A stretch of DNA of 33,475 nucleotides from Elusimicrobiota bacterium. Its GTDB lineage: Bacteria > Elusimicrobiota > Elusimicrobia > Elusimicrobiales > UBA9959. Positions 143-23,095 of the stretch are shown in pieces. The notes under the pieces are model-generated. The model ran no database searches. It saw only the letters and a list, made by a program, of their open reading frames with translations, and had not been told where the DNA came from. Each line of letters starts with the position of its first letter. The stretch's first letter is position 1. The translations under genes were made by a program, and so were the position numbers. The stretch lies in NCBI GenBank assembly GCA_012517285.1, contig JAAYVG010000011.1, forward strand, positions 1-33,475. The letters run 5' to 3'.

Positions 143-338
143 ATTTAATGAAAACAGAAGTCAGAAGACAGATGACAGAAGTCAGATAACAGAACTTGCC
201 TGCCGAAGCCGCTTCGGCGCAGGCAGGGACAGAAATCAGAAAAGCAAATTAGTTATTTGGTTGTCTCGTTATATAGTTATTTAGGGATGCAGAGCGACCG
301 ATTCAACCTACGCGGTTGAAGAATAAACCGCGTAGGTT
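143..338. repeat. Compound intergenic repeat, copy 1
   Basis: Four modules follow each other. First is a heptamer array of CAGANNN units at 155-243 (CAGAAGT, CAGAAGA, CAGATGA, CAGAAGT, CAGATAA, an interrupted CAGAA|GA, CAGAAAT, CAGAAAA). Second is a 33-bp palindrome at 195-227 that splits the sixth heptamer. Third is an octamer-like stretch at about 250-283 (TTAGTTAT, TTGGTTGT, CTCGTTAT and similar). Fourth is a perfect hairpin with 13-nt arms AACCTACGCGGTT (305-317) and AACCGCGTAGGTT (326-338). The same block recurs at 4291-4487 with about six substitutions and one indel by eye. The right hairpin arm overlaps the stop codon of the small minus-strand gene at 337-546. Confidence 0.9.
195..227. 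repeat. 33-bp mobile palindrome (copy 1)
   Basis: The unit begins CTTGCCTGCCGAAGCC and ends CTTCGGCGCAGGCAGG, so it folds into a GC-rich hairpin (GCCTGC/GCAGGC and CGAAG/CTTCG). It stands out against the AT-rich surroundings. Removing exactly these 33 bp rejoins CAGAA and GA into a CAGAAGA heptamer, keeping the 7-nt period of the array around it. No target duplication is seen. Confidence 0.75.
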
Positions 339-4290: not shown

Positions 4291-4487
4291 ATTTAATGAA
4301 AAACAGAAGTCAGAAGACAGATGACAGAAGTCAGATAACAGAACTTGCCTGCCGAAGCCGCTTCGGCGCAGGCAGGGACAGAAATCAGAAAAGCAAATTA
4401 CTTATTTGGTTGTCTCGTTATTTAGTTATTTAGGGAGGCACGGCGACCGATTCAACCTACGCGGTTGAAGAATAAACTGCGTAGGTT
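4291..4487. repeat. Compound intergenic repeat, copy 2
   Basis: A near-identical direct copy of 143-338, with the heptamer array, the 33-bp palindrome (4344-4376), the octamer stretch and the hairpin AACCTACGCGGTT (4454-4466)/AACTGCGTAGGTT (4475-4487). The single change in the second hairpin arm leaves a G-T wobble. It dominates the 347-bp gene-free stretch 4157-4503. The remainder (4192-4290) contains another octamer-like run, TTAGTTGTTTGGTCATCTGG, at about 4261-4280. Confidence 0.9.
4344..4376. repeat. 33-bp mobile palindrome (copy 2)
   Basis: Identical in sequence to the unit at 195-227 and at the same place in the heptamer array. It was therefore carried along with the duplication of the whole repeat rather than inserted independently. 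Confidence 0.75.
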
Positions 4488-5877: not shown

Positions 5878-6275
5878 TGGCTGTTTAGTTATCTGGTTAT
5901 TTAATCATCAAGATGTAATCATCAGGATGGAGACAGATTCATCAGGATGAAAACGGATAAGACACCTGATGAATACAGATTAAGTCAAAATAAAAACAGA
6001 CAAATTAGTTATTTAATCATCAGGATGAAGACAGATTAAGTCAGAATGTAAACTGATAGTTTAGTTATTTGGGAAGGACAAATTGGTTATTTAGTTGTCT
6101 GGTTATCTGGTTATCTGGTTGTCTGGGAAGGCACGGCGACCGATTCAACCTACGCGGTTGAAGAATAAACCGCGTAGGTTGGAACCAGAATTAACTGACG
6201 CGGTTGGGGCTCATAAACCGCATCAGTTAAGACCAAATTAACCTGCGAGGTTCAAGAACAAATCAGGTAGGTCAG
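5878..6275. repeat. Long mosaic of intergenic repeat modules
   Basis: This is part of the longest gene-free stretch of the window (5707-6648). The modules include repeated 'ATCATCAGGATG..GACAGATT' units (about 5906-6035) and a run of TGGTTATC-like octamers (about 6081-6126). The perfect hairpin AACCTACGCGGTT (6147-6159)/AACCGCGTAGGTT (6168-6180) follows. The second hairpin AACTGACGCGGTT (6193-6205)/AACCGCATCAGTT (6216-6228) is mismatched at the same position as at 1351-1363. A decayed third element, AACCTGCGAGGTT, lies at 6240-6252. Nothing is recognisable in 5707-5877 or 6276-6356. Confidence 0.8.
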
Positions 6276-6356: not shown

Positions 6357-6665
6357 AGCAAGCGGGCGATGCCTGCCTGCCGAAGCCGTTTCGGCGTAGG
6401 CAGGGGAATCTCCTACAAGTAACCCCGTGGAATAAAATCCTTTGGATTTTAATTTGCAAAGCAAATTATTCCACTGGGTCTCGCAGGCCGCTCCTCGTTC
6501 CAATATATAGCACAATCGGGATTGCGGACTTTTCCGCCTACGATAAACATATCAGCAAAACGACTGTGGCTATTCGCCACTTTGCTGATATATCTTCGGC
6601 GGACAGGCGATTCCCGCGTCCCGATTTCATCGGGACTTAGCACCAGCAAGCGGGCGATGGGAATC
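6357..6665. mobile_element. tRNA-bracketed, gene-less structured element
   Basis: Both ends carry the 3' end of the tRNA-Gly gene. The right copy is the tRNA itself plus flank, AGCAAGCGGGCGATGGGAATC (6645-6665, plus strand). The left copy is AGCAAGCGGGCGATG (6357-6371) plus GGAATC (6405-6410), split by a 33-bp palindrome. In between are strong folds. One is a three-way junction at 6427-6474 (GTGGAA/TTCCAC enclosing hairpins TAAAATCC-TTT-GGATTTTA and ATTTGC..GCAAAT). Another is a long stem at 6517-6616 (CGGGA/TCCCG, TCCGCC/GGCGGA, ATATCAGCAAA/TTTGCTGATAT, GTGGC/GCCAC). The last is a hairpin GTCCCGAT-TTC-ATCGGGAC (6618-6636). No real gene is present. The layout resembles a minimal element inserted at a tRNA 3' end; its mobility is inferred. 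Confidence 0.55.
6372..6404. repeat. 33-bp mobile palindrome (copy 3)
   Basis: Starts CCTGCCTGCCGAAGCC and ends GTAGGCAGG, matching the units at 195 and 4344 at about 30 of 33 positions. Removing it restores GATG|GGAATC, exactly as in the intact tRNA copy at 6656-6665. The two T-for-C differences near the centre and the right arm suggest an independent insertion. Confidence 0.75.
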
Positions 6666-6719
6666 GAACCCACGTCTTGACCTTGGCAAGGTCTCGTTCT
6701 ACCATTGAACTACGCCCGC
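6649..6719 (-). tRNA. tRNA-Gly (GCC)
   Basis: Reading the minus strand from 6719: acceptor GCGGGCG pairs with CGCCCGC (6650-6656). The D-arm region is AGTTCAATGGTAGAAC, the anticodon arm ACCTTGCCAAGGT carries GCC, and the T arm is GTGGG-TTCGATT-CCCAT. The length is 71 nt before CCA. The CCA tail is not encoded: the flank after the discriminator T reads TGC. The downstream 3' end is repeated at 6357-6410. Confidence 0.95.
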
Positions 6720-6727
6720 ATAAGGAA

Positions 6728-9659: not shown

Positions 9660-10289
9660 TCAATCCAAAACAAGGTTTTTAATCTTATTCAAATCTCTCT
9701 GATAATCTATCTGATCTTCAACAAAAACCTTATATACATCAGGTGTCATATTAATATATTTTACAAAATCACAAAAACCATGCTCCAATTCAATATATTC
9801 TTTATATGATGAATACTTCCAATCCTCAGGTTTTGAAACGAGAAAAGCCGTTACAGGATTTAGATGCTGATATCTTGTCAGATGAACAAGCTGTTCATTA
9901 CTTTTCACGGCCACAGCCTTAAACCTTGATTCCCACAGCGGGCCTTTTCTTTTATGCCTTTGATTGAAATACAATGAATAACTCTTCTGTACTGAACAGA
10001 TGTATTTTTCTATACCATTATCTTCATTCTGGAAAAGAGTCATATGATAATGTGTAGGCATTATGCAATATGAAAGAATATCTACTTTAGTTTTTCCAGC
10101 AGATATATCAAGCTCATCAGAATTACAGAAAGAGTATCTCTTTTTAAGTCCTGAGAATCTATAATACTTCATTATGCTTAAAAATCTATTATACTCACTA
10201 TAATCATTAAAAATTTGATATCCTGATATACTTCTATTAAATATATGATAGAAACAACCATTAACAATTTGGACTCTTCTAAATGGCAT
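9660..10289 (-). CDS. REP-associated (RAYT-type) Y1 transposase
   Basis: A 209-residue Y1_Tnp protein of the IS200-like/RAYT class, single-strand-specific HUH nucleases. The N-terminus GCFYHIFNRSISGYQIF is the family's opening motif. The metal-binding HUH is H80-Y81-H82 (PTHYHMTLF), and the likely catalytic tyrosine is Y140 in LTRYQHLNPV. GPLWESRFKA and DWKYSSYKEY are typical of the REP-associated branch. It lies inside the nucleotide-sugar operon in the same direction, with a good Shine-Dalgarno (AGGGGG) and a perfect hairpin (10300-10332) directly before it. No tnpB, terminal inverted repeats or target duplication are visible, as expected for single-copy RAYT genes. It may process palindromic repeats such as those in this window. 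Confidence 0.9.
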   Translation of the reverse strand: MPFRRVQIVNGCFYHIFNRSISGYQIFNDYSEYNRFLSIMKYYRFSGLKKRYSFCNSDELDISAGKTKVDILSYCIMPTHYHMTLFQNEDNGIEKYICSVQKSYSLYFNQRHKRKGPLWESRFKAVAVKSNEQLVHLTRYQHLNPVTAFLVSKPEDWKYSSYKEYIELEHGFCDFVKYINMTPDVYKVFVEDQIDYQRDLNKIKNLVLD

Positions 10290-10299
10290 TTATCCCCCT

Positions 10300-10332
10300 A
10301 CGATCCCGAACCGTGTAACGGTTCGGGATCGT
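10300..10332. repeat. Perfect 15-bp-arm hairpin before the transposase gene
   Basis: Arms ACGATCCCGAACCGT (10300-10314) and ACGGTTCGGGATCGT (10318-10332) with a 3-nt loop. It lies between the stop of manC, which it overlaps by one base, and the ribosome-binding site of the transposase gene 10 bp on. There is no T run, so a REP-like substrate for the adjacent Y1 transposase is more likely than a terminator. It may also tune read-through to the distal operon. Confidence 0.85.
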
Positions 10333-11720: not shown

Positions 11721-11742
11721 ATCATCTCCTTAATTAGTTGTC

Positions 11743-11773
11743 AGTGATCAGTGGTCAGTGGACAGTGATCACT
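11743..11773. repeat. Heptamer array between manC and gmd
   Basis: Four 7-nt units CAGTGAT, CAGTGGT, CAGTGGA, CAGTGAT (plus strand, from 11742) are bounded by the inverted pair AGTGATC (11743-11749)/GATCACT (11767-11773). The period is the same as in the CAGANNN arrays elsewhere in the window. It lies in the 50-bp gap inside the operon and touches the gmd stop codon. Confidence 0.7.
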
Positions 11774-15394: not shown

Positions 15395-15520
15395 TCTAAT
15401 CATCAGGATGTAGACGGATTAAATACACTGATGAAAACAGATTCATCGAGATATAGACAGATTAATTAGTTATTTGGTTGTTTAGGAAGAAGAAGCAAAA
15501 GTAACCGCGTAGGTTACTTT
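15395..15520. repeat. Repeat modules upstream of the rfb operon and the FN3 gene
   Basis: The divergent gap 15315-15614 holds 'AATCATCAGGATG..GACGGATT' and 'TGATGAAAACAGATTCATC' modules like those at 5906-6035. A decayed octamer stretch lies at about 15460-15485. A short palindrome AAAGTAACC (15498-15506)/GGTTACTTT (15512-15520) has a GCGTA loop, and its core AACCGCGTAGGTT is the hairpin arm of the compound repeats. No gene is seen. Confidence 0.7.
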
Positions 15521-15578: not shown

Positions 15579-15607
15579 TTGCTTTTTAATTACCTATCAT
15601 ATAAAAT
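15579..15607 (+). promoter_or_regulatory. Possible leaderless promoter of the FN3 gene
   Basis: TTGCTT (15579-15584), a 17-nt spacer and TAAAAT (15602-15607) are followed by 7 nt and the ATG at 15615. The -35 is weak (three of six). The -10 matches the box seen before the ATPase genes, and no Shine-Dalgarno site precedes the ATG. Confidence 0.4.
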
Positions 15608-15614
15608 ATATATA

Positions 15615-18600
15615 ATGGCTTTTTATAAAAAGATTAATATATTGATAGATTTTATTGTTTTGTCTTTTTTTTTATCATTAAAGGCATATTCGGCTGATCT
15701 CACTGTTAATCAAACCGTTCATATAACATCAATAACATACCAGTGGAATGCCGTGGGCACAAACAATTACACAACAGTTCTATCCACACACTCAGATTTT
15801 TCATATCCTATTATATCAGAAACAATAAGCACTAACTCCACAGACTACCTATCACTTAAAGGAAATACCCAATACTATTTCAAGGTTAAGATCTCCACAA
15901 AGGATGACTCCGCATACACATCTGTTTCTACAGTTACGTACACACAAACTCCTTATAACATTGAAGCCACATACAATCAATATCAATCAGAAACAACTGC
16001 ACAGATAGTTATTAACTTTCCAGATGAAAATGCCCCTGATACAACATATCAGATAGATTATTCTTCCAACGTCTCCTATAACCCTAAAAATAGTAAATCA
16101 TACACTGGAGTTCCACCCTTTCCCGTGAACGGTCTTTTAACCAACACTACATACTATTTTAAGGTTAAAGCCTTTGATAGAGAGTCAAGGCCCACCAACT
16201 TCTCTGAATCATTTTCAACTCAAACGGTGGCAAAGACTCCTGATGACTTTAACACTCAAATATATGAAACGAGCTCAACATTTAACTGGTCGCCTATTAA
16301 TGGTCCAGAGCAAGAAAACTCATCCTCAGGATATAAACTTTTAGTAACAGAAGATGCGGAGTATAAGATAATAGTATCATCATATAATATTGATAAAGAT
16401 ATAGGTTCACAAACAATAGAAAATCTTACGAGGAATACAAAATATTACTATAAATTTTCTGTTTTAAACTCAATAGGAGTTGAGAGCTTTATACCCGGAA
16501 GTTTTTATACGCTCACATCAAAGCCATCAAACTTTAAAATAATAAATTATTCATCAAGCTCTGTCAGAGCAGGATGGAACAGATTCCCTTCATCACCACC
16601 ATCCGATACAGCACTTCTATTTAGACTTGAGGCATCAACCACAAACAATTTCATAAATATAATATCATCCATAACATATGATATGAGTATTTCTACACTT
16701 TCCATAGATACTCTTGATAGTAATACGACCTATTACTTCAGGGTTGGTGCTTTTAATATGGCTGGATATTCAAATTATTCTGATATCTTATCCACATTAA
16801 CACTAAGCATGCCGATACACGACTCAACGATAGAATACATAAAGACTCCGCGATCAATAACGGCAGTTTTTCCAAACTCACCAAAAAACTTTGAGCCACT
16901 TACATCATACGGTTATTCATTTGAGATATCAACAAACAATTTTTTTAGTGTATATCTTTCATCATATACACCCAATGTTGATGATAATTCTCTTACAATA
17001 TCAGGACTTAGGCCAAACACAACATACTATCTTAGACTTGCCACCTACAACAGGAATATGGTTCCAAATTATTCAGAAATAAGGAAAGAGTTAACACCTC
17101 TGCCACAGATATCACCTGATGTCTTTGTAACATATTACTCAAGCGATACTGTATCCATACATTACTCAACAGTGGATGCTGATGGTTATGTTGTAGAGCT
17201 CAGTACAACCAACGATTTCAGCAATATTTCCTACTCATCAGCAACGTATTCAAATGATATTTCAACGCTTACTATAACTCCTGTTAATTCTGATACCCTT
17301 TATTACATAAGAGAGGGCTCAATTTTTCCTGGTGCAACAATATATAAGAATGCAGAACCATACTATATAAGGACACTTTCTCCTCCTCCAACCGATCTTC
17401 AGATTGATAGTGTTAATATTTCAAGCATAACTATGAGATGGACACCTTCAGCATGTAAGGGTTATTCATTAGAGGCATCTACATCCTCACAGTTTACAAA
17501 TCCAATAACTTCGGTTATAATGGATCCAAATCTATCTGTTATGAGTGTAGGAGGGCTTAAACCGAATACAACATATTATCTGAGGGTTGGAAGCATAAAC
17601 TCTGCCAATGCTAAAAATTATATAACATCCCCTTCCACACCAACGCTGGCCAATTTCACTATTGAGAAACCTTTGACGAGGCTTACAACATATTCGATGC
17701 AAATAAACTGGGACAAGAATTCAAATCCCGATGACACGCTGTATGATATAGAAATCTCATCAACTGGTTTTACTGATGGTATTATCTATTCATCAAAAAC
17801 ATACAACAGTTTTGCATACTTTGACTCACTTAAATCAAACACTACATACTACAAAAGGATTACCTCATTCAACAGAGCAATGAGACCAACAGGACCCATA
17901 AGCTTTACACCAGTTGCAACTCTTGCATATAAGCCACATCTTCTAACAGTAAACAATTCTACACGCTCTATAAATGTAATATGGGATGATACAAACAATG
18001 CCTTCGGTACACCATATCTGGTTGAGGTCTCATCAACAAACTTTGAATCAATAATTTCATCAAGAACTCTTATGAAATCATCAACATTTTATGATCTCAA
18101 TGCAAACACACCGTATTTCTTAAGGCTATCAGCTATAAATTTTAGTGGAATACCTTCGGAATATGAAAGTTATATTACCACAACCTGTGTTGAAATTCCA
18201 TCGATATCAACTCCAACATTTTTGAATGTTTTGCTTGATGGCTTTACAGCCCAGTGGTCAAACAATTATAACTCCACGCATACAATATATAGCGTCGAGG
18301 CATCAACAAAAACTGATTTTTCAACAATATTCAGATCTGTTGATACAATGGATACTATACTGGTTTTTCCAGATCTCAACTACAACACTCAGTATTATAT
18401 AAGAATAAAAGCAAAGGGGTTGATACCTAACAATGAAAGCGATTATTTTTATCTTGGCAGCATATCAACGCTTTACAGAGAGGAGCAGACTATAGATAAT
18501 AAGAAGGAAGAGATTGTTTCAATACCATATTCATACGGAGCGATACAGGTTATAATACCACCATATGCTTTAGGAAGTGCAACAAAGGTTTTTATAGAAC

Positions 18601-19163
18601 CGGATTTAAATCCACCAGCACCAAAATCGAAAGCTGGCAATTTAAGGCCAACGGGATTTGCAGCCAGAGTTTATATATTTCCAGTGGTTTTATATAACGG
18701 TTTTATGGAGGTAAGAATTCCATTTAGCACCATACCATCATCATTTGATATGAATAAACTCATACTTGCAAGGTATGATGAAAGTGCAAAGCTATGGGTT
18801 CCGATTGAATCATATCAGGAGAACAATTATATTGTTGGCAAAACTTACCATTTTTCAACATTCCAGATAATGGAGTTTGAGGAATCTCAAAGCGTCGAAG
18901 ATGTAAAAATATATCCCAATCCATACAAGCCAAACACAAACATGGGTAAGGTAAATTTTTCAAATATGCCGGGCGACACTGATATACACATATATACTGT
19001 TATGGGCAAGCTTATTAAAAAATTAAAGGCTAACAAAAGTGGATTTGTTCAATGGGATTCAAAGAACTCTGATGGGAGAGAGGTGGCAAGCGGGGTATAT
19101 CTTGTAATTTTTAAGGACAAAAATGGTAATAAGGTAATAAAGAAACTGGCCATAGAGAAATAA
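15615..19163 (+). CDS. Secreted multi-FN3 protein with C-terminal sorting-type domain
   Basis: About 1182 residues from the ATG; an upstream in-frame TTG at 15579 would spoil the signal-peptide start. A signal peptide (KINILIDFIVLSFFLSLKAYSA) opens the protein. Ten fibronectin-III-like repeats follow, each marked by an 'N-T-x-Y-Y-x-R/K-V' strand (from NTQYYFKV to NTQYYIRI) at 90-99-residue spacing. Next comes a ZU5-like segment (GAIQVIIPPYALGSATKV), then KIYPNPYKPN and a final FlgD-like/type-IX-sorting-like domain ending GVYLVIFKDKNGNKVIKKLAIEK. It is Ser/Thr/Tyr-rich and probably cell-surface or exported, perhaps an adhesin or carbohydrate-binding protein. Its stop overlaps the start of the PorV-like gene by one base (TAATG), which suggests that the two products work together. 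Confidence 0.88.
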   Translation: MAFYKKINILIDFIVLSFFLSLKAYSADLTVNQTVHITSITYQWNAVGTNNYTTVLSTHSDFSYPIISETISTNSTDYLSLKGNTQYYFKVKISTKDDSAYTSVSTVTYTQTPYNIEATYNQYQSETTAQIVINFPDENAPDTTYQIDYSSNVSYNPKNSKSYTGVPPFPVNGLLTNTTYYFKVKAFDRESRPTNFSESFSTQTVAKTPDDFNTQIYETSSTFNWSPINGPEQENSSSGYKLLVTEDAEYKIIVSSYNIDKDIGSQTIENLTRNTKYYYKFSVLNSIGVESFIPGSFYTLTSKPSNFKIINYSSSSVRAGWNRFPSSPPSDTALLFRLEASTTNNFINIISSITYDMSISTLSIDTLDSNTTYYFRVGAFNMAGYSNYSDILSTLTLSMPIHDSTIEYIKTPRSITAVFPNSPKNFEPLTSYGYSFEISTNNFFSVYLSSYTPNVDDNSLTISGLRPNTTYYLRLATYNRNMVPNYSEIRKELTPLPQISPDVFVTYYSSDTVSIHYSTVDADGYVVELSTTNDFSNISYSSATYSNDISTLTITPVNSDTLYYIREGSIFPGATIYKNAEPYYIRTLSPPPTDLQIDSVNISSITMRWTPSACKGYSLEASTSSQFTNPITSVIMDPNLSVMSVGGLKPNTTYYLRVGSINSANAKNYITSPSTPTLANFTIEKPLTRLTTYSMQINWDKNSNPDDTLYDIEISSTGFTDGIIYSSKTYNSFAYFDSLKSNTTYYKRITSFNRAMRPTGPISFTPVATLAYKPHLLTVNNSTRSINVIWDDTNNAFGTPYLVEVSSTNFESIISSRTLMKSSTFYDLNANTPYFLRLSAINFSGIPSEYESYITTTCVEIPSISTPTFLNVLLDGFTAQWSNNYNSTHTIYSVEASTKTDFSTIFRSVDTMDTILVFPDLNYNTQYYIRIKAKGLIPNNESDYFYLGSISTLYREEQTIDNKKEEIVSIPYSYGAIQVIIPPYALGSATKVFIEPDLNPPAPKSKAGNLRPTGFAARVYIFPVVLYNGFMEVRIPFSTIPSSFDMNKLILARYDESAKLWVPIESYQENNYIVGKTYHFSTFQIMEFEESQSVEDVKIYPNPYKPNTNMGKVNFSNMPGDTDIHIYTVMGKLIKKLKANKSGFVQWDSKNSDGREVASGVYLVIFKDKNGNKVIKKLAIEK

Positions 19164-20110
19164 TGAAAAAAATTTTAATGCTATATATTATACTTATTTC
19201 AAACAAACCACTCTTTTCAGCTTTTGATAGTTCATCTCATGGAACAACTGCAGCAGAAATACTTGAGCTTAATATAAATCCGAGGTGCGTTGCTATGGGA
19301 GAGGCTTGCACATCAAATATATATGATGCATCAACAATAGATATAAATCCAGCAAGCCTTGTCAAGGTAAAGAAGGATTCTTTCTACCTTTCCTACAACA
19401 AACTTTTTGAAGATATATCGGTAGGGAATATATCATATGCAAGAAAAATTGGTAAGAATGTTGGTTCATTCGGGGTTGGAGTAAAGTATCTTAACTGGGG
19501 TGATATAACAAAAACAGATGACTATGCAAATGATATTGGTGTTATGACACCAAATGAGATGGTGGTTGAGATGGGATTTGCCACATATCTAACAGGTCTT
19601 ACAAAGGATGAAGAGGACAGGCTTGTTTTTGGAGGCATCGGTAAATTTATAAGGACACAAATAGACTCATCGGCAACAACCCTTTCAGCAGATATAGGTG
19701 TTCTATTCCCATATCTCTTTGATAGAAGACTTCTTATGTCCTTTGCTTTTCAAAACATCATAGGAACTATAAAAATGGATAAGGACAACTACAACATAAC
19801 AAAAATAATAAAATTTGGCAGCAGTGTATTTTTAAACCAGAACATAACCATAAACTCTGATATAATAATGCCAGAAAACTCGTTTCTTTATTTTGCAATT
19901 GGGATTGAAGGGAAAATAGACATCAATAAAAGAACCAAGCTTTTTCTAAGAGCGGGTGGAAATACAAGAAACATATCGGATCTAAACGGGTTCAGGAGTG
20001 CAAGTTTTGGATTTGGAGTAAGACACTGGGAATATACATTTGATTATTCATTTTCACCATTTGGAGATTTAGGAAACATCAACAGGATATCACTGTCGCT
20101 TAATTATTAA
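19163..20110 (+). CDS. PorV/PorQ-like outer-membrane beta-barrel protein
   Basis: A 315-residue protein with a signal peptide (cleavage near LFSA, residues 17-20). The mature N-terminus, GTTAAEILELNINPRCVAMGEACT...DASTIDINPASL, is the hallmark of the PorV/UPF0164 family (FadL-like barrels): a 'G..aa..L.i...aR..amG.a......d..a...NPA.L' pattern. Alternating aromatic strands and a final strand ending FDYSFSPFGDLGNINRISLSLNY fit a barrel. In Bacteroidota, PorV shuttles type IX cargo with C-terminal sorting domains. The coupled upstream gene encodes just such a domain, so a similar export or attachment partnership is plausible, but no other secretion component is visible here. Confidence 0.85.
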   Translation: MKKILMLYIILISNKPLFSAFDSSSHGTTAAEILELNINPRCVAMGEACTSNIYDASTIDINPASLVKVKKDSFYLSYNKLFEDISVGNISYARKIGKNVGSFGVGVKYLNWGDITKTDDYANDIGVMTPNEMVVEMGFATYLTGLTKDEEDRLVFGGIGKFIRTQIDSSATTLSADIGVLFPYLFDRRLLMSFAFQNIIGTIKMDKDNYNITKIIKFGSSVFLNQNITINSDIIMPENSFLYFAIGIEGKIDINKRTKLFLRAGGNTRNISDLNGFRSASFGFGVRHWEYTFDYSFSPFGDLGNINRISLSLNY

Positions 20111-21868: not shown

Positions 21869-21955
21869 GGAACGGATATCAGAAGACAGAAATCAAAGGA
21901 CATAATAAAATGGATGCTTTATTTATCTGACTTCTGACCTCTGTCATCTGTTATT
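21869..21955. repeat. Inverted heptamer array downstream of tdh
   Basis: Plus-strand units CAGAAGA, CAGAAAT and a decayed CAAAGGA (21872-21893) are followed after about 35 bp by the opposite orientation. Read on the minus strand, that half is CAGATGA, CAGAGGT, CAGAAGT, CAGATAA. The inverted layout could fold into a long imperfect hairpin between tdh and the lipoprotein gene, but it lacks a terminal T run. Confidence 0.65.
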
Positions 21956-22994: not shown

Positions 22995-23095
22995 TAAAAA
23001 TCAGAAATCAGAGTACAGAAGACGGAAGTCAGAGGTCAGAAATAATGAGTTCTTTTAAAATCTGACATCTGATTTCTGTTTTCTGACTTATGCTT
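22995..23095. repeat. Inverted heptamer array upstream of tdh
   Basis: Plus-strand units CAGAAAT, CAGAGTA, CAGAAGA, CGGAAGT, CAGAGGT, CAGAAAT run from about 23003 to 23044. After a short AT spacer the opposite orientation follows. On the minus strand it reads CAGAAAA, CAGAAAT, CAGATGT, CAGATTT. It lies in the 229-bp gap before tdh. The remaining part (23096-23207) is AT-rich with no gene. Confidence 0.65.

Follow-up and report, generated by a model that had tools for sequence, protein, structure and literature searches.

The way in which REP-like palindromes spread has long been debated, since their insertion has seldom been seen directly, and the movement of REP sequences is usually attributed to inverted pairs (REPINs). 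Transposition by HUH enzymes leaves no target duplication. Among other tiny repeats, the SDR hairpins of Nostoc, reportedly the subject of Elhai et al. 2008, are said to be 21–27 nt hairpins lying in heptamer arrays in cyanobacteria, for which an RNA- or repair-type spread is said to have been suggested, and the Rickettsia palindromic elements (RPEs) are about 100–150 bp long. For the REP sequences of E. coli, both the 5′ tetranucleotide and an A12A13-G26C27 bulge matter for the activity of TnpA-REP (PMC8266576).

Here, we analyzed a window of 33,475 nucleotides, contig C31 of the 1.96-Mb genome of an Elusimicrobiota bacterium (G000), and found in it three copies of a 33-mer, with none expected from dinucleotide shuffles. 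Genome-wide, 101 copies were recovered at ≤3 mismatches and 104 by a covariance model; they are near-identical, occur in both orientations and mostly lie outside ORFs, only few being intragenic. The window copies, the repeats flanking them and a neighboring tRNA gene are given below in window coordinates.

153 to 194, forward strand: array of NNCAGWN heptamers, the left landing pad of copy 1, which resumes in phase past 227
195 to 227, forward strand: copy 1 of the 33-bp mobile hairpin, a CTTG tag plus a 29-nt hairpin within the heptamer array, with a paralogous empty site on contig C3
228 to 241, forward strand: heptamers GACAGAA and ATCAGAA, in phase after copy 1
4302 to 4343, forward strand: heptamer array to the left of copy 2
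4344 to 4376, forward strand: copy 2 of the 33-bp mobile hairpin, sharing a 200-bp segmental duplication (96%) with copy 1
6372 to 6404, forward strand: copy 3 of the 33-bp mobile hairpin, splitting a repeat that resembles the 3′ end of tRNA-Gly between GCGGGCGATG and GGAATCTCCTACAAGTAA
6649 to 6719, reverse strand: tRNA-Gly (GCC) gene; the sequence interrupted at 6372 to 6404 is unbroken in its 3′ part

Copy 1 reads CTTGCCTGCCGAAGCCGCTTCGGCGCAGGCAGG, and copy 3, reading CCTGCCTGCCGAAGCCGTTTCGGCGTAGGCAGG, matches it at 30 of the 33 positions. Since copies 1 and 2 share the 200-bp duplication, they were counted as one insertion event.

The mobile unit is 33 bp, a 5′ CCTG tag followed by a 29-nt bulged hairpin, with the consensus CCTG + CCTGCC-GAA-GCCG-YTT-CGGC-GYA-GGCAGG. 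Tag and flank statistics were taken from 95 distinct copies, read with their flanks from the stretches around them. A CCTG-like tag (≤1 mismatch) directly precedes the 29-nt hairpin in 81/95 copies, giving 33 nt; it is exactly CCTG in 54 copies and CTTG in 14, and neither GTAG nor CGTC was found in any. In the remaining copies the tag is lost or altered, some being 29-bp forms, so that not every copy measures 33 bp. The units mostly stand alone or in direct tandems, with adjacent copies arranged head to tail at a period of 33, and inverted neighbors are rare. Rfam searching found no family besides tRNA, and a literature search found no description of this 33-mer repeat. The palindrome is also carried within larger repeats: family A (L120–L132, GGGGNCACTGAAAAAGTCTATTTG...) is MITE-like and holds it at one site, in both orientations and in 29-bp as well as 33-bp forms, which suggests in-place inversion or a 4-nt slippage of the hairpin, and family B repeats carry it likewise.

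The lowest-energy fold of the hairpin is stable, but its register shows no covariation, and therefore a register leaving CCTG unpaired was tested instead, namely ....((((((...((((...))))...)))))), corresponding to CCTG + CCTGCC(GAA)GCCG(NNN)CGGC(GYA)GGCAGG. This register has a bulge of A12A13 facing G25Y26 and a 4-bp inner stem, and it outscores every slid version. Double changes were found at 6 of its pairs, with 11 such cells, against 2.2 pairs in shuffles and 0/500 shuffles reaching the observed value, in a test weakened by the register having been picked after the variants were seen.

Comparison of filled and empty sites then defined the insertion. Twenty-two copies, not all of them independent, have two or more heptamers on either side; removing the 33 bp restored the 7-nt phase in every one, and the insertion point and polarity were in each case CAGWN^NNCAG (22/22; also given as CAGWN^GNCAG). 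Copy 1 thus splits a heptamer and restores the period upon removal, just as the initial annotation had read it, and its paralogous empty site was found at C3:50291–50361 of the same genome, where the left flank matches at 45/47 and the right flank at 28/30, with one heptamer fewer. The second site read in that annotation, copy 3 within a tRNA 3′ end, was also read correctly: GCGGGCGATG runs unbroken into GGAATC in the tRNA gene, at a distance of about 290 bp. As an empty partner, a repeat copy on contig C35 (L022) is better still, the match there reaching into GGAATCTCCTACAAGTAA; on that contig the filled type of repeat recurs, and the next repeat unit is empty with both flanks matching. At both tRNA-Gly loci (window 6360–6720 and L022), the tRNA 3′ end and the sequence downstream of it are repeated in tandem blocks of about 200–290 bp, in which different hairpins have replaced one another.

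Filled and empty pairs were also found in two distant metagenome-assembled genomes (MAGs). In the one labelled Lentisphaerae (G061), exactly 33 bp are present or absent between ...CCGTCCGCGG and CGCTTTCGG, and the junction of ...GAGCCGTCCGCGG with CGCTTTCGGGCC occurs once without an insert and elsewhere with the exact 33-mer in it. Similarly, the one labelled Kiritimatiellae (G062) has an exactly 33-bp pair at ...AAGCCTGGGG and TGGAACCCC, and both empty and 33-mer-filled versions of ...CAAAGCCTGGGG with TGGAACCCCAGG. All these pairs differ by the unit alone, and no target-site duplication was seen. Clean empty sites were sought for family A as well, whose hairpin-free relatives differ in the junction region and were not counted.

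Four-unit matches to the NNCAGWN array number 381 in the host genome, 348 in the relative G006 and none in the same-genus genome G001; no 33-mer copies were found in G006, showing that the arrays exist without the unit. Around insertions outside heptamers, no common target motif or conserved tetranucleotide was found. The arrays often form inverted pairs, and lie in the window at 153–194, 4302–4343, 11740–11767, 21925–21952 and 23060–23087.

Insertions within genes provide orthologous junctions. In nnrD of the host genome (L064), two units account for 22 extra residues that separate WAQS from GKKNGF, and this insert is absent, the alignment being ungapped, from 6/6 relatives examined, including one of the same genus, which shows gain rather than loss. 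Relative to solved homologues, DnaE and aconitase of an Omnitrophota MAG (G063) have about 11 residues inserted at the hairpin. As 33 bp equal 11 codons, the unit offers a route for adding exactly 11 codons to genes such as nnrD, dnaE and aconitase without frameshift. The dnaE gene of this MAG (L039) contains an intein-like segment in addition to the 11-codon palindrome insertion.

At ≤2 mismatches, the unit was found in 0/340 other genomes of the phylum, and it was found in 0/60 close relatives; the relative G005 has about ten shorter, 30-nt cousins. The exact 29-mer, with a chance expectation of about 2e-6 in 257 Gb, was found in five GTDB genomes labelled Lentisphaerae, Kiritimatiellae (two), PVC group and Omnitrophota, and the full identical 33-mer in at least three of them (labelled Lentisphaerae and Kiritimatiellae). 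Contamination is unlikely, because flanks and base composition in the distant carriers are the hosts' own. A search for exact matches among viral contigs, plasmids and phages found none. The limits of the mobile unit are fixed to the base by the filled and empty sites, by the junctions in orthologous genes and by the identical units of distant phyla. It is well supported that this tiny hairpin is mobile and inserts with no duplication of its target, and it is among the smallest mobile DNA elements for which filled and empty sites can be compared. The gene-less mobile palindrome proposed in the initial annotation is borne out by pairs in heptamers, in the tRNA-like repeat, in two other MAGs and in nnrD, and its clean insertion without duplication stands, although some copies differ from 33 bp in length.

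The annotation had further linked the palindrome to a RAYT-type transposase encoded in the window. This gene and a hairpin beside it are located as follows.

9660 to 10289, reverse strand: RAYT-type Y1 (HUH) transposase gene (Pfam PF01797, E=2.8e-7; NCBIfam NF047646, 62.7 bits, under the cut-off of 80; PDB 4er8, TnpA-REP, E=0.006)
10301 to 10331, no strand assigned: perfect hairpin CGATCCCGAACCG-TGTAA-CGGTTCGGGATCG, just upstream of the RAYT start

The likeness of the encoded protein to REP transposases is weak but specific. The host genome has three RAYTs, two of which (on C25 and C40) adjoin the palindrome AACC-GCGTA-GGTT, as does the RAYT of the sister genome G001; the window RAYT has the unique hairpin at 10301–10331, which is probably its own and unrelated to the 33-mer. 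A second palindrome family, AACCTACGCGGTT ... AACCGCGTAGGTT with GTAG inside, occurs in the window at 304–338, 1281–1381, 2817–2851, 4453–4487, 6146–6252 and 15502–15515, and adjoins the RAYTs of C40 (on both sides), C25 and G001 (L150, L151, L152), of which it is likely the cognate REP or TIR. Elsewhere in the window, 15579–20110 encodes a protein with a type IX secretion sorting tail, beside a PorV-family protein.

With respect to the mover, a role of the window RAYT or its two paralogues appears quite improbable. Being Y1/HUH proteins, they are of the right class, and the hairpin anatomy of the 33-mer is REP-like; nevertheless, each RAYT of the host adjoins another palindrome, and no 33-mer lies beside the window gene or flanks any of about 48 RAYT loci inspected in carriers and relatives, the nearest case being one 33-mer 373 bp from the C25 RAYT, which is within chance. 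Neither do presence and number of Y1/RAYT genes follow the copy number of the 33-mer, the check across relatives that the annotation had named: G001, whose RAYT occupies the corresponding position, downstream of a homologous porin-like gene, and G006, with 8 Y1 genes, have zero 33-mers, and other relatives likewise have Y1 genes and no copies, whereas the 33-mer or its core is present in G061, G062 and G063, which have no detectable homologue of the window RAYT. The missing flanking 33-mers, the hairpins and palindromes of the RAYTs themselves and the copy-number mismatch indicate that the window RAYT is probably not the mover. The annotation had named variable length, flanks that do not rejoin cleanly and abundant copies in genomes lacking a Y1 transposase as counting against its reading; in the pairs compared the flanks rejoin cleanly, but lengths vary, and G063 has copies and no detected Y1 gene.

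Another route would be that of an SDR-like element, spreading through RNA or by way of hairpin DNA captured in replication or repair. The setting here is the same, a tiny hairpin in heptamer arrays whose copies are adjacent or nested and which has no dedicated transposase, and yet its boundaries are exact and do not differ between several phyla, suggesting the action of a specific enzyme and not a random capture; we regard this route as unlikely, while allowing it some weight. Far less credible is that the palindrome is immobile and that composites of heptamer, palindrome and heptamer were copied as larger blocks, inheriting phase and boundaries. Long flanks are indeed shared by some copies, namely those at 195 and 4344 in their 200-bp duplication and those in the family A and B repeats, but exact junctions with empty partners occur in unrelated hosts (nnrD, the tRNA-like repeat and the two other MAGs), heptamer arrays without the unit exist in both G000 and G006, and such copying is already largely refuted by the insert in nnrD and by the filled and empty pairs found outside this genome. 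Least credible of all is an ordinary regulatory hairpin, a terminator or mRNA stabilizer, that selection maintains and whose scatter reflects chance similarity: the majority of copies are intergenic and the hairpin is stable, but near-identical sequences in either orientation, about 104 in one genome against 0/340 in the phylum, in-frame genic copies and clean empty sites all speak against it, and no conserved position at orthologous genes was seen across relatives.

We therefore favor, with a probability of roughly 0.5, a REP-like mobile hairpin moved in trans by a candidate HUH single-strand transposase, a class suggested by clean insertion without duplication, the bulged hairpin and the REP-like tag. 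The element moves as a single 33-nt miniature unit, and we infer a single-stranded intermediate: the folded strand would be cut and joined by an HUH (Y1) enzyme, probably other than the window RAYT, that would recognize the tag and the AA/GY bulge in the manner of E. coli TnpA-REP. Insertion is clean, with no target bases duplicated or lost, preferably into NNCAGWN arrays at CAGWN^GNCAG, and otherwise into other repeats, directly beside existing copies or occasionally in frame within genes. Against this reading, the tag is CCTG and neither GTAG nor CGTC, no RAYT of any host is flanked by the unit and RAYT number is unlinked to copies, an IS608-like conserved target tetranucleotide is missing outside heptamers, single units dominate instead of REPIN-type inverted pairs, and the supporting register is post hoc, with the minimum-energy register lacking covariation. 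Quite conceivable too, and offered tentatively, is that the solitary 33-nt hairpin is a complete mobile unit, passed between phyla and moved by an enzyme other than the host's REP-associated transposase (an unlinked HUH protein, or an RNA/repair route), and that it lengthens conserved genes, dnaE among them, by in-frame segments of 11 codons. Defined to this precision, the unit lends itself to biochemical assays of mobility on a 33-nt oligonucleotide, and carriers can be compared with non-carriers in search of its mover.

Compared with the E. coli REP sequences of group 2 or GTAG-3 (PMC8266576, PMC3733652), the unit is alike in its length of about 33 nt and in having a 5′ tetranucleotide directly before an imperfect hairpin. 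It also shares with E. coli REP the AA-GC bulge of group 2 (here AA-GY) at 12–13 and 25–26, the 4-bp inner stem and about 100 copies that are mainly intergenic with some intragenic, and it is, like REPs by definition, a high-copy, mostly intergenic palindrome of 20–50 nt. In contrast, it has a CCTG tag in place of a GTAG or CGTC end, no rayt flanked by inverted copies of it was found, and its abundance does not track a cognate rayt; it occurs as singles or head-to-tail tandems rather than as the two inverted REPs with a short linker that make up a REPIN, its clean single-unit insertion is directly readable, and its sequence is common to several phyla.

With the Nostoc SDR it shares tiny hairpins often in tandem heptamers, a position beside or within other repeats and the lack of an encoded enzyme; by description rather than by sequence, the 33-mer is set apart by its length of 33 nt instead of 21–27 nt, by its REP-like tag and bulge, by its presence in other phyla and by orthologous empty sites in a gene. 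The RPEs and CGTC-tagged repeats (PMC3733652) are likewise in-frame palindromes in protein genes with no dedicated transposase known, but differ in size and CGTC tag, and only few copies of the 33-mer are intragenic. Hairpin ends, the absence of target duplication and a Y1-class enzyme in the genome recall IS200/IS605 single-strand transposition, from which the 33-mer differs in having neither left and right ends nor a gene; against the insertion of that family 3′ of a fixed tetra- or pentanucleotide, it shows a fixed CAGWN^GNCAG within heptamers, and no common motif or conserved target tetranucleotide was found elsewhere. Since the unit works like a REP and departs from the REP definition in tag and flanked rayt, we place it among the tiny mobile hairpins as a variant.
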